Source: Candidatus Kuenenia stuttgartensis (GTDB lineage: Bacteria; Pseudomonadota; Alphaproteobacteria; SMXS01). Taken from it: DNA of 64,000 nt. The DNA lies in NCBI GenBank assembly GCA_943329845.2, contig CALQFM020000008.1, positions 1 through 64,000 on the forward strand, in the 5' to 3' direction. Within the stretch, counting starts at the first letter, position 1. Each line of letters starts with the position of its first letter. Below are positions 37,169 to 43,412 of the stretch, piece after piece. The translations under genes were made by a program, and so were the position numbers. The notes below the pieces were generated by a model that saw nothing but the letters and a program-made list of their open reading frames with translations, was not told the origin of the DNA and did not search any database.

Positions 37169-37218
37169 CGATTCCCGCTTCCCGTGATCCGCGCCCGCAC
37201 GCCGGGCGTACAGGGTTC

Positions 37219-38652
37219 ATGTCCGCATCCTCGCCTCTTATCGTCCTGTTCCGGTCGGACCTGCGTCTCGCGGATCACCCTGCGCTCGCCGCGGCGGCGC
37301 GCAGCGGCAGGCCGGTCATCCCGGTCTACGTGTTTGACGAGGGCAACCGCCACGCCATGCCGGGCGCGGCCAGCCGCTGGTGGCTGCACCACAGCCTCGA
37401 GCGGCTCTCGGAGTCGCTCGGCGCGCTGGGATCGCGGCTGATCCTGCGACGCGGCAACGCGTCCCGCATCCTGCCCGAACTGGTCCGCGAGACAGGCGCT
37501 GGCGGAATTCTCGCCAGCCGGTCCCACGAACCGCGGCAGCGGGCGGTCGAAAGGCTGATTGCCGAGGCAGGGGTGGAACTGAAGCTGTTCGCCGGCAATC
37601 ATCTGTTCGAGCCGGGAACGCTGCTGACCCAAAACGGCGGCCCCTACCGGGTGTTCACGCCGTTCCACAAGGCTTGCCTCGATGCGCAGGCGCCGGCCGC
37701 GCCGATGCCTGCCCCCAGCGCGCTGGCCGCGCCGGACCACTGGCCCGCCGGCGACACGCTCGCCGCCTGGAACCTGCTGCCCGCCGTACCGGACTGGGCC
37801 GCCGGCCTGCGCGAGAGCTGGACCCCGGGCGAGGCGGCGGCGGCGCAACGCCTCGATGCCTTTCTCGATCGGACGGCCGCGGATTACAACAAAGCCCGCG
37901 ACCTGCCCGCCGAAGACGGCACATCTCGGCTATCGCCCTACCTGCATTTCGGCGAGATCAGCGCCCGCCAGATATGGCATGCGGCGATCCATCATTCCGA
38001 GGCCGGCGGCGCTGGCGTGGCGGCATTCCTGCGCGAGCTGATGTGGCGCGAGTTCTCGTGCCACCTGCTGCAACATTTCCCCGAAATGACCCACCGTCCG
38101 CTGCGCCGCCAGTTCGAGGCGTTCCCCTGGGACCACGATGACAGTGCCCTGCGCGCCTGGCAGCGCGGGGCGACCGGATACCCCATCGTCGATGCGGGTA
38201 TGCGGCAGCTCTGGCATACCGGATGGATGCACAACCGTGTCCGCATGATCGCCGCGTCGTTTCTGGTCAAGGATCTGCGGCTTGACTGGCGGCTCGGCGC
38301 GGCCTGGTTCCTCGACACGCTGGTCGACGCGGACGCCGCCAATAATTCGTGCGGCTGGCAATGGGTCGCCGGCTGTGGTACTGATGCGGCTCCATATTTT
38401 CGGGTTTTCAACCCGGCGCTGCAGGCGCGGAAGTTCGATCCAGAAGGGTGTTTCGTGCGTCGCTGGATACCGGAACTGGGCAATGTTCCGGATGCGTACG
38501 TTACGGAGCCTTGGACAATGACGCCCGCTCGCCGGGGAACGATGGGTTTGAGGCTTGGGCAGTCTTATCCGGATCGTATCGTTGACCATGCCGAGGCGCG
38601 TAAACTGGCGCTGGCCGCGTATGGCCGGATGAGCGACGAAATTGCCGTTTGA
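37219..38652 (+). CDS. phrB: deoxyribodipyrimidine photolyase
   Basis: A 477-residue class I photolyase that uses blue light and reduced FAD to split cyclobutane pyrimidine dimers. The N-terminal antenna domain starts LIVLFRSDLRLADHPAL. The FAD-binding domain shows ATGYPIVDAGMRQLW, WMHNRVRMI, ANNSCGWQWVAGCG and APYFRVFNP. The length and motifs are complete. It is followed 10 bp later by the flavin amine-oxidase-like gene and is part of a likely four-gene operon. A related cryptochrome role cannot be excluded. Confidence 0.92.
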   Translation: MSASSPLIVLFRSDLRLADHPALAAAARSGRPVIPVYVFDEGNRHAMPGAASRWWLHHSLERLSESLGALGSRLILRRGNASRILPELVRETGAGGILASRSHEPRQRAVERLIAEAGVELKLFAGNHLFEPGTLLTQNGGPYRVFTPFHKACLDAQAPAAPMPAPSALAAPDHWPAGDTLAAWNLLPAVPDWAAGLRESWTPGEAAAAQRLDAFLDRTAADYNKARDLPAEDGTSRLSPYLHFGEISARQIWHAAIHHSEAGGAGVAAFLRELMWREFSCHLLQHFPEMTHRPLRRQFEAFPWDHDDSALRAWQRGATGYPIVDAGMRQLWHTGWMHNRVRMIAASFLVKDLRLDWRLGAAWFLDTLVDADAANNSCGWQWVAGCGTDAAPYFRVFNPALQARKFDPEGCFVRRWIPELGNVPDAYVTEPWTMTPARRGTMGLRLGQSYPDRIVDHAEARKLALAAYGRMSDEIAV

Positions 38653-38662
38653 ATTGAGACAT

Positions 38663-40015
38663 ATGACAAGCACGGGCCAGCCACACAACATCATCGCCAT
38701 CAAGCAGGCGCCGCAGCCGCATCAGCGCATTGCCGTCATCGGCTCCGGAGCGGCAGGCCTCGGCGCAGCGTGGGCGCTGTCGAAGCGCCACCGGGTCACG
38801 CTCTACGAGGCCGACAATCGCCTGGGGGGCCACAGCCACACCATGACCGCGCCGACGGCGGTGGGCGACGTGCCCGTGGATACCGGTTTCATCGTCTACA
38901 ACGAGGTGAACTACCCGAACCTCGTGTCCATGTTCTCCCATCTCGGTGTCGCCACATCGGGCAGCGACATGTCGTTCGCGGTGTCGATCCGCGACGGCCA
39001 GCTCGAATACTCCGGCACCGGCTTGGCCGGCCTGTTCGCCCAGCGCCGCAACGTGGCGCGGCCGCTTTACTGGCGCATGGTCTGGGACGTGCTGCGCTTC
39101 TACCGGGAAATGCCGCTGTTGCTCGAGCGCGAGGATCTGGAAAGCATCACCCTCGGCAAGCTGCTCGACCGTCAGGGCTATTCGAAATATTTCCGCTTCA
39201 ATCACCTGTACCCGATGGCGGCGGCGATCTGGTCCATGCCGGTCCACAAGATCGAGGAATTTCCCGCCGCAACCTTCATCCGGTTCTACCAGCAGCACGG
39301 GCTGCTGACCGTGAACGGCCGCCCGCGCTGGCGTACCGTCACCGGTGGCAGCCAGTCCTATGTGCGCGCCATCCTCGACGATTTCGGCGGTGACGTGCGC
39401 TCCGGCCATGCGGTCCGCGAAGTGACGCGCGAGGCGTCGGGCGTACGGGTCAAGACCGACGCGGACGAGGGCACGATCTACGACCAGGTGGTGATCGCCG
39501 CCCATGCCGACCAGACCTTCGCGATGCTGCCCGCGCCCACGGTGCAGGAGCACTCGGTGCTCGGCACCTTCGATTACGAGAAGAACGCCGTCATCCTGCA
39601 CCGGGACAGCACGCTGATGCCCAGGCGGCGCCACGTTTGGTCGAGCTGGAACTACCTGTCGAGCGGCGCCGAGGATGTGGAGGGCCGGTTGTCGGTCACC
39701 TACTGGATGAACCGTCTTCAGGGCATCGATCCGCGCGTGCCGCTGTTCGTCACCCTGAACCCGTTGCACGAACCGCGCGACGAGGCGGTCATCGCCCGTC
39801 TCACCTACGACCATCCGTCGTTCGACGGCAAGGCGCTCGCCGCGCAGAAGCGGCTCCCCGAGATCCAGGGCGCCGACCGGATCTGGTATTGCGGCAGCTA
39901 TTCCGGCTACGGCTTCCACGAGGATGCCTTCACCTCCGGCCTCAACGTCGCGATAGCGCTGGGAGCCCAGCTGCCCTGGCTTGCCGACCGGCCCGCCGAA
40001 GCGGCGGTGGCCTGA
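38663..40015 (+). CDS. FAD-dependent amine-oxidase-like protein
   Basis: A 450-residue flavoprotein. After about 20 residues comes the dinucleotide motif IAVIGSGAAGLGAAWAL, then YEADNRLGGHSHTM. The C-terminal part has WYCGSYSGYGFHEDAF, typical of this NAD/FAD-binding group found beside DUF1365 and Cfa genes. In Rhodobacter sphaeroides I recall a homologue (RSP1091) needed for furan fatty acid formation and for the singlet oxygen response. I chose ATG 38663; a TTG at 38642 overlaps the photolyase. Probably membrane-associated lipid oxidation. Confidence 0.85.
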   Translation: MTSTGQPHNIIAIKQAPQPHQRIAVIGSGAAGLGAAWALSKRHRVTLYEADNRLGGHSHTMTAPTAVGDVPVDTGFIVYNEVNYPNLVSMFSHLGVATSGSDMSFAVSIRDGQLEYSGTGLAGLFAQRRNVARPLYWRMVWDVLRFYREMPLLLEREDLESITLGKLLDRQGYSKYFRFNHLYPMAAAIWSMPVHKIEEFPAATFIRFYQQHGLLTVNGRPRWRTVTGGSQSYVRAILDDFGGDVRSGHAVREVTREASGVRVKTDADEGTIYDQVVIAAHADQTFAMLPAPTVQEHSVLGTFDYEKNAVILHRDSTLMPRRRHVWSSWNYLSSGAEDVEGRLSVTYWMNRLQGIDPRVPLFVTLNPLHEPRDEAVIARLTYDHPSFDGKALAAQKRLPEIQGADRIWYCGSYSGYGFHEDAFTSGLNVAIALGAQLPWLADRPAEAAVA

Positions 40016-40022
40016 ACCGGTC

Positions 40023-40820
40023 ATGCGCTCGGCATTGTATGAATCGACGGTGATGCACCACCGCGTGCGTCCGTTCCGCCACCGCTTCACCTACCGGGTG
40101 TTCTCGTTGCTGCTCGACCTGGACGAGATCGGCGAGCTGGGCCGGAAACTCTGGCTGTTCTCGCACAACCGCTTCAACCTGTTCAGCTTCCGCGACCGGG
40201 ATTTCGGCGACGGCGGCGCGCCCCGGGCCTGGGTCGAGCGCGCGCTGGCCGAGAAGGGCCACGATTTTGCGGTGGGCCGGATCGCCCTGCTGTGCTTCCC
40301 GCGGGTGCTGGGCTACGTGTTCAACCCGCTCAGCGTCTATTACGTCCATGATACGCAGGGGGCGCTGCGCGCCATTCTTTACGAGGTCACCAATACCCAC
40401 CGCGACCGCCATTCCTACCTGTTGCCGGTGACCGGCGACGGCGGCACCATCCGCCAGGAATGCGACAAGAACCTCTACGTCTCGCCATTCATCGGCATGG
40501 AGGCGCGCTACCACTTCAAGCTCGGCGAACCCGGCGAAACTCTTGCCGTCGCCATCCGCGAGGAAACGCCGGAAGGCAACGTCCTGTTCGCCGCCCTGTC
40601 GGGGGTGCGCAAGCCGCTGACAGATGGCATACTGGCGCGAATGTTTATCCGGCATCCCTTGATGACGCTGAAGGTTATCGGCGGTATCCACTGGGAGGCA
40701 TTGAAGCTCTGGCGCAAGGGCGCACGGGTTTTTCGCCACCCGCCGCCGCCCGATACGGAGGTTTCAGGCGAACAGGTAGCGGGGCGTGTCCATGAACCAG
40801 TTTATGCTGCCGGACCGTAG
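40023..40820 (+). CDS. DUF1365-family protein
   Basis: A 265-residue protein of the DUF1365 family. The conserved core is MHHRVRPFRHRFTYRVFSLL at the start, RVLGYVFNPLSVYYV and the later ECDKNLYVSPF. Such genes nearly always sit between the FAD protein and a cyclopropane fatty acid synthase-like gene, as here. The role is in lipid modification by association; the activity is not known. ATG 40023 lies seven bases after the previous stop; the end overlaps cfa by 29 bp. Confidence 0.87.
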   Translation: MRSALYESTVMHHRVRPFRHRFTYRVFSLLLDLDEIGELGRKLWLFSHNRFNLFSFRDRDFGDGGAPRAWVERALAEKGHDFAVGRIALLCFPRVLGYVFNPLSVYYVHDTQGALRAILYEVTNTHRDRHSYLLPVTGDGGTIRQECDKNLYVSPFIGMEARYHFKLGEPGETLAVAIREETPEGNVLFAALSGVRKPLTDGILARMFIRHPLMTLKVIGGIHWEALKLWRKGARVFRHPPPPDTEVSGEQVAGRVHEPVYAAGP

Positions 40821-42070: not shown

Positions 42071-42721
42071 CTAGAATCTGACCTTCGGATTGATGAACCG
42101 GCCCATCAGGCCGGTAAAGTGCATCGGCGCGTCCAGCACCGTGAGGCACAGGCAATCCTCGCCCTTGTCGGCGATCGGCCTGTGGCGCACCGAGCCGTCG
42201 CAGATCTGGAACGAGCCGGCGCGGTATTGCCCCGTCTCGTCATGGAACGAGCCTGACAGCACCACCGTATATTCCAGGCCTTCGTGCGTATGGTGCAGAA
42301 CACCATGCCCACCCCGGACGTGCAGCAGCGTCGCCCGGTAGCGACGGTCGGCCACGGGCAGCACCGCCTCGCGTACGTTGTTGCCCCACCGCTCCCACTG
42401 CAGGCCGTCCAGCCCCTTGGGGACATAGCGCCATAGTGGCGCGGGCAGCAAGCGGCGGGTCTCGGCGTCGAGCGGTGGCGAGGCGAACCCGGTCCACGCC
42501 GGGGCGCCGTCGAGCCGGTCGAGCGTCGCGGCCAGCAGGTCCTCGGACACCGCTTCCGGCTCGACACCGGCGAAAAGGGCGCCGCCCGTCGCTTCGAGCA
42601 GGCGCATTTCGGCGCGCGCGGCCGGGTCCAGGGCCAGCTTGGTTGCGGCGGCGAGGGCGGGGCCTTCCGGCAGCGCGCCGCTCGCATAGTCCATCAGCAG
42701 CAGGTCCAGGTCGGCGGTCAT
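42071..42721 (-). CDS. chrR: ChrR-family anti-sigma factor lacking the N-terminal zinc site
   Basis: A 216-residue anti-sigma protein with a C-terminal cupin. The cupin metal ligands are kept: H144-x-H146, E150 and H180, in HHTHEGLEYT and SVRHRP. In R. sphaeroides ChrR the N-terminal sigma-binding domain holds zinc through two His and a CxxC (from memory H6, H31, C35, C38). Here residues 1-130 contain no His or Cys at all; the matching stretch reads ATKLALDPAARAEM. The domain still has DYASGALPEG, so it is recognisably homologous. It is coupled to rpoE by a 4-base overlap. Confidence 0.9.
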   Translation of the reverse strand: MTADLDLLLMDYASGALPEGPALAAATKLALDPAARAEMRLLEATGGALFAGVEPEAVSEDLLAATLDRLDGAPAWTGFASPPLDAETRRLLPAPLWRYVPKGLDGLQWERWGNNVREAVLPVADRRYRATLLHVRGGHGVLHHTHEGLEYTVVLSGSFHDETGQYRAGSFQICDGSVRHRPIADKGEDCLCLTVLDAPMHFTGLMGRFINPKVRF

Positions 42722-43365
42722 GGCAGGTGCTCCCCGATCATGCCGCGCAGCCGGGCCAGCGCGAGCCGGATGCGCGACTTGACCGTGCCCAGCGGCAGGC
42801 CCAGCTCGACCGAGATGACGCCGTGGGACTTGTCCTCGAAGAATGCCAGCATCAGCACCTGACGCTGGTCGGCGGGCAGCAGGGCGATGGAGCCGCGCAG
42901 GTCGGCCGATGCCTGCGCCAGCGCCATTCGTGCGTCGGGCGAGGGTTCGTCATCGATGGCGATGTCGAGCGGATCGATTTCGGGCCGCACCTGCCGCCGC
43001 AGCATGTCGATCCTCTTGTTGCGGGCGATGGTGAATATCCAGGTCGACAGCGCGGCGCGCGCCGGATCGAACTGCTCGGCCTTGTTCCAGACGGTAATCA
43101 TGGCTTCCTGGACGATTTCCTCGGCGGTTTCGGGGTCGGCGCCGCCGCGCATCATGAATGCCTTCAGGCGCGGCGCGAAATGCTGGAACAGCTCGATGAA
43201 GGCACCGCGGTCCCGTTGGCAGGCGATCCGGCCCACAAGCGCTTCGAGACGCCTGGCCTGTTCCGGAGACGTGACGGTCCGTTGTTGCATACGTCTTTTA
43301 CTTCCCGTGCGTCGCCAGGGTGCGGGCGCCGGGCCGATGGTAGAGATTGCGGCTTGTTGTGTCAT
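42718..43365 (-). CDS. rpoE: ECF sigma factor RpoE (ChrR-partner type)
   Basis: A 215-residue extracytoplasmic-function sigma factor. Region 2 is FIELFQHFAPRLKAFMMRGG with ETAEEIVQEAMITVW and TWIFTIARNKRIDMLRR; region 4 is LLPADQRQVLMLAFF with GLPLGTVKSRIRLALARLR. The neighbouring chrR identifies the group that responds to singlet oxygen. I chose ATG 43365 because GGAGG lies five bases upstream; an internal ATG at 43290 would give a 190-residue protein of more usual length. It is divergent from mscS. Confidence 0.92.
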   Translation of the reverse strand: MTQQAAISTIGPAPAPWRRTGSKRRMQQRTVTSPEQARRLEALVGRIACQRDRGAFIELFQHFAPRLKAFMMRGGADPETAEEIVQEAMITVWNKAEQFDPARAALSTWIFTIARNKRIDMLRRQVRPEIDPLDIAIDDEPSPDARMALAQASADLRGSIALLPADQRQVLMLAFFEDKSHGVISVELGLPLGTVKSRIRLALARLRGMIGEHLP

Positions 43366-43382: not shown

Positions 43383-43412
43383 GTGATACGTGCATGGCGG
43401 CCCGGCGGATCA
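43383..43412 (-). promoter_or_regulatory. candidate ECF-type promoter of rpoE-chrR
   Basis: On the minus strand TGATCC (43412-43407) is followed after 18 bp by TATCAC (43388-43383). TGATCC is the -35 box I recall for Rhodobacter RpoE, so autoregulation is plausible. The leader before ATG 43365 would be only about 11 nt, close to the ribosome-binding site, which lowers confidence; it would fit better if ATG 43290 were the real start. Confidence 0.3.

Follow-up and report, generated by a model that had tools for sequence, protein, structure and literature searches.

The window, by which we mean the whole 64-kb stretch of DNA analyzed here, carries an rpoE-chrR gene pair on its minus strand and, on its plus strand, a putative RpoE operon that converges on chrR. 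The features on which our argument draws are as follows.

37185..37210, plus strand: TGATCC-N16-CGTA promoter upstream of the photolyase operon, predicted by motif scan
37219..38652, plus strand: DNA photolyase/cryptochrome gene, which opens the putative RpoE operon
38642..40015, plus strand: gene for a FAD/NAD-binding amine-oxidase-like protein, UfaD (RSP1091)-like (PMC7380195), start codon unsure
39981..40820, plus strand: gene for a DUF1365 protein, UfaO (RSP1090)-like (PMC7380195)
40786..42069, plus strand: gene for a cyclopropane-fatty-acid-synthase-like methyltransferase (Cfa/UfaM-like), convergent with chrR
42071..42721, minus strand: chrR, encoding a ChrR-family anti-sigma factor of 216 aa, assigned from the open reading frame, profile and PDB matches
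42182..42292, minus strand: cupin metal site H144, H146, E150, H180, located by alignment
42617..42640, minus strand: codons for K28-L-A-L-D32-P-A-A35, where the H-xxx-C-xx-C segment has degenerated (K, D and A in place of H31, C35 and C38), located by alignment
42713..42715, minus strand: codon of A3, the counterpart by alignment of zinc ligand H6 in R. sphaeroides ChrR
42718..43365, minus strand: rpoE, encoding an ECF11-type sigma factor of 215 aa, with a GGAGG ribosome site and a 4-nt overlap with chrR (ATGA)
43387..43412, minus strand: TGATCC-N16-CGTA promoter upstream of rpoE-chrR (autoregulation), conserved in same-genus loci

The chrR reading frame begins at an ATG that overlaps the rpoE stop codon as ATGA. 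Its product scored 184.6 bits against the ChrR family profile TIGR02451 (curated cut-off 124.5) and was above the cut-off for the cupin-like domain PF12973, with ChrR of R. sphaeroides as its closest solved relative in the PDB (2z2s_B, E = 1e-37). When aligned to the R. sphaeroides protein, whose ligand positions are reviewed in PMC6852236, the window's ChrR has all four zinc ligands of the anti-sigma domain replaced (H6, H31, C35 and C38 by A3, K28, D32 and A35), and all four cupin ligands present (H141, H143, E147 and H177 as H144, H146, E150 and H180). The only histidines of the 216-aa protein are at positions 134, 139, 143, 144, 146, 160, 180, and 201, and the only cysteines at 174, 190, and 192. 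The initial annotation had described residues 1–130 as free of His and Cys, the H-xxx-C-xx-C region as reading K-L-A-L-D-P-A-A, and the cupin site at H144, H146, E150, and H180 as intact, all of which was borne out, with the stretch lacking both residues extending to position 133 and the degenerate segment running from K28 to A35. Judged by its sequence, the protein is a ChrR by the family test, yet it fails the motif that defines ZAS, the zinc-binding anti-sigma family, H/C-x(23-26)-H-xxx-C-xx-C, at A3, K28, D32, and A35. A search of the window's genome for a second chrR copy with a zinc site found none, the window's gene encoding the only ChrR detected there.

The neighboring sigma factor matched R. 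sphaeroides RpoE best among PDB entries (2q1z_A, E = 3.9e-47; runner-up 6e-19). The motif TGATCC-N16-CGTA, which is the published promoter consensus of its sigma group (PMC5507510, PMC4336711), occurs at exactly two sites in the 64 kb, one upstream of rpoE-chrR and one upstream of the photolyase operon, and two sites were found in 0 of 100 shuffles. Across the whole genome, a scan returned five exact sites, the three outside the window being without convincing gene context. The ATG of the photolyase gene lies 8 bases past the CGTA -10 element (37185–37219), and given this short gap the operon message may be leaderless. The operon runs from the photolyase through the FAD protein and the DUF1365 protein to the CFA-type methyltransferase. 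In R. sphaeroides, RSP1090 and RSP1091 serve furan-fatty-acid synthesis and are required for singlet-oxygen-triggered ChrR proteolysis (PMC7380195, PMC3818230). The chrR and DUF1365 genes also face each other, about 2–3 kb apart, in the remaining genomes of the family in which chrR is complete. By sequence, promoters, and gene order, rpoE-chrR is an intact ECF11 circuit.

The absence of the zinc site is shared by the window's family. Eight sequences from two genera could be read, namely the window's, six from genomes of the same genus and one from a second genus; in a third genus (G008), which stands outside the eight, ChrR is split across contig ends and its anti-sigma domain is unreadable. 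The alignment showed all four ligands absent in each of the eight, with A, T, L, or M at H6, K, Q, or M at H31, D at C35, and A at C38. Because eight species agree in this state, a sequencing or frame error was ruled out. None of these close relatives bears the His/Cys set, and the loss of the zinc site from the sigma-binding domain, as first noticed in the window's protein, is thus a conserved trait of the family. All eight also keep the 4-nt overlap between rpoE and chrR. The anti-sigma domain is under purifying selection, like the cupin domain, with dN/dS values among five genus members (Nei-Gojobori) of 0.14–0.65 and a median of about 0.27, as compared to a median of about 0.26 for the cupin domain in the same five members. 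Conservation at its non-ligand positions is similar to that of zinc ChrRs.

A class-wide search, in which 149 of 387 genomes had a ChrR above cut-off, was combined with a search among relatives and a scan of named genomes to give 162 ChrR sequences, the R. sphaeroides reference included. All 162 have the full cupin HHEH set, whereas H31-C35-C38 is complete in 118, with both Cys absent in 37 and one absent in 7. On the tree of this set, made with the zinc-ligand columns left out, the 37 zinc-less ChrRs need 16 parsimony state changes, and strongly supported branches force at least six. When only ChrRs with an adjacent ECF sigma factor were considered (131, of which 23 are zinc-less, plus the reference), the full, cupin-only, and sigma-factor trees each required 11 changes. 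One common origin of all zinc-less ChrRs was ruled out on a 47-row tree, where a single zinc-less clade was rejected (p-AU 0.0008) and bootstrap trees needed 8–9 changes. These trees indicate that the zinc-less state arose several times in Alphaproteobacterial ChrR. The trees are unrooted, and we infer that the changes were losses from the fact that most rows have the zinc site. The window's family grouped with the zinc-bearing L009, L102, and L117 in the large tree (support 96), a grouping unsupported in smaller trees, and its branching point within ChrR is placed weakly.

The initial annotation had suggested that sensing and sigma binding may be uncoupled from zinc in this lineage. The anti-sigma-domain zinc does appear to have been dispensed with, but its absence has several origins among Alphaproteobacterial ChrRs and is not specific to one lineage. 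An uncoupling of sensing from zinc goes too far: given that the cupin ligands are invariant, the cupin metal was probably retained in the window's ChrR, with only the anti-sigma-domain zinc dispensed with. That sigma binding proceeds without zinc is suggested by selection, operon context, and predicted fold.

Several features of the wider set deserve mention. Seven ChrRs retain a single zinc Cys (L151, L155, L032, L070, L028, L137, and L164) and are possible intermediates of loss. An adjacent ECF sigma gene is missing from 14 of 37 zinc-less ChrRs versus 9 of 117 zinc ChrRs (Fisher p = 4e-5, kinship ignored). These 14 are L033–L036, L120, L125, L142, L150, L144, L145, L149, L153, L165, and L029; in those of their genomes that were tried, an ECF11-like sigma factor is present elsewhere. 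At the two such loci that were read (L034 and L142), ChrR adjoins a cysteine-synthase-like gene, and in L034 it also adjoins an SDR-CFA-DUF1365-FAD cluster. Within the cupin C-x-C pair, the second Cys (R. sphaeroides C189) is A, V, or S in L156, L158, L161, L162, L024, L028, and L030, the first Cys being retained in the rows printed. Both cysteines of this pair are reportedly dispensable, which a variable second Cys fits.

We found no reaction-center genes in the window's genome. Loss of phototrophy was nevertheless rejected as a general rule explaining zinc loss, as reaction-center genes (PF00124) are present in G007, G037, G131, and G136, whose ChrRs lack both Cys. G007 belongs to the same family as the window's genome, and its ChrR has M/K/D/A at the ligand positions. 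Phototrophs in the set comprise about 14 with the zinc site, four without both Cys, and one without one Cys; zinc-less ChrRs are thus about as common among them as in the set at large, and a missing zinc site does not go along with missing photosynthesis.

What may have replaced the zinc is suggested by the predicted fold. The AlphaFold2 model of the window's ChrR (mean pLDDT 79), a metal-free model built from only eight aligned sequences, places the helices of the anti-sigma domain at residues 3–13, 19–31, 33–49, and 60–71, with D32 exactly between the second and the third. Among PDB structures it came closest to ChrR as solved in 2q1z and 2z2s (TM-score on target 0.76–0.78). Of the 37 zinc-less ChrRs, 28 have Asp, Ser, or Asn at the C35 position, frequently with Pro next, and across the other zinc-less lineages the residue there is D, S, N, R, K, E, or L. 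Asp, Ser, and Asn are typical helix N-cap residues. ChrR, with zinc, and RseA, without it, share the same helical bundle, a fold that either zinc or protein-protein packing can stabilize (PMC6852236). By this analogy, and on the model, a helix cap at D32 together with packing may stand in for the zinc clip.

Taken together, sequence and model make it likely (probability about 0.8) that the window encodes a working RpoE-ChrR-type ECF11 pair whose anti-sigma domain needs no zinc to fold or to retain its sigma factor, which would leave the cupin as the one known sensor. The zinc-free domain would hold RpoE, while helix packing and the capping of helix III by D32 (by Asp, Ser, or Asn in other zinc-less ChrRs) would replace the zinc tie of helices I–III. 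Singlet oxygen would act via the cupin and UfaD/UfaO-dependent proteolysis of ChrR, instead of zinc-thiolate oxidation, and the freed RpoE would turn on rpoE-chrR and the photolyase/furan-fatty-acid operon. Of this scheme, zinc-free folding and sigma binding, capping by D32, and cupin-based sensing are the steps that we infer.

According to Newman 2001, as cited in PMC6852236, R. sphaeroides ChrR must bind zinc at the anti-sigma-domain ligands to inhibit its sigma factor, and zinc-free binding would therefore require compensation such as that proposed above. The same finding is what speaks for a degenerate anti-sigma domain that no longer holds RpoE, leaving the sigma factor constitutive or otherwise controlled. 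We consider such degeneration quite improbable, given the purifying selection on the domain, the translational overlap with rpoE in all eight family members, non-ligand positions conserved as in zinc ChrRs, and the presence of zinc-less ChrRs in phototrophs. It is very improbable that the domain instead binds metal through other residues, whether Asp or Glu or ligands contributed by the cupin domain or RpoE. Acidic residues can bind zinc, and D32 occupies the C35 position throughout the family; however, the other three positions hold A/T/L/M, K/Q/M, and A in a region (residues 1–133) devoid of His and Cys, and the variable residue at the C35 position in other zinc-less lineages suits capping better than ligation.

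A different role for the cupin, in ligand binding or as an enzyme, with the protein sensing a signal other than singlet oxygen, would be compatible with zinc-free sigma binding. Such a role would fit cupin ligands that are invariant whatever the state of the anti-sigma domain, the lack of a photosynthetic reaction center in the window's genome, and the zinc-less ChrRs without a sigma gene. It nonetheless seems unlikely to us, as the local target genes, for photolyase and furan fatty acids, belong to the singlet-oxygen regulon, and as G007, in the same family and with the same zinc-less ChrR, has reaction-center genes. The zinc finger proposed as a singlet-oxygen sensor appears to have been discarded repeatedly and independently, even in phototrophs, and the cupin site never. 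On a bolder reading, to which we give an even chance, the anti-sigma-domain zinc would therefore be a replaceable structural clip, and the cupin, with fatty-acid-triggered proteolysis, would be what truly senses singlet oxygen in this sigma group and would suffice for it.

The window's pair resembles RpoE-ChrR of R. sphaeroides (ECF11; 2q1z, 2z2s) in domain order, cupin ligands, sigma partner, and promoter consensus, as well as in its UfaD/UfaO-type neighbor genes, there needed for singlet-oxygen-triggered ChrR turnover (PMC3818230, PMC7380195). In contrast to that system, all four zinc ligands of the anti-sigma domain are replaced, and the photolyase and CFA genes share one operon that converges on chrR. 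About 28% of soluble class I anti-sigma domains have no zinc motif, and zinc-less class I domains are included in the mixed groups AS19-1, AS27, and AS33-2 (PMC7406223). RsiW of B. subtilis does not depend on zinc to bind its sigma factor (PMC7406223) yet keeps the zinc motif, which is gone from the window's ChrR. A class I anti-sigma fold without zinc, predicted here, is also found in RseA of E. coli and RskA of M. tuberculosis. RseA and RskA are membrane proteins under other control, whereas the window's protein carries the ChrR cupin and has no predicted membrane part. While zinc-less class I domains were already known, zinc-less ChrRs, their repeated origin, and the contrast with an invariant cupin appear to be new; our literature search, with most subscription papers beyond reach, found no report of any of the three.

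Two views of singlet-oxygen sensing have been put forward, one in which a reactive Zn(Cys)2(His)2 site of the anti-sigma domain becomes oxidized (PMC6432622, from work on model peptides) and one that relies on the cupin together with triggered proteolysis (see the review PMC6852236, according to which it is not known what part the anti-sigma-domain zinc plays in the response). Zinc-less ChrRs would offer zinc-independent anti-sigma modules for laboratory gene circuits. With all else in place, and some of them in phototrophs, they also represent a natural test of the disputed role of this zinc: if they still respond to singlet oxygen, zinc-thiolate oxidation would not be required.
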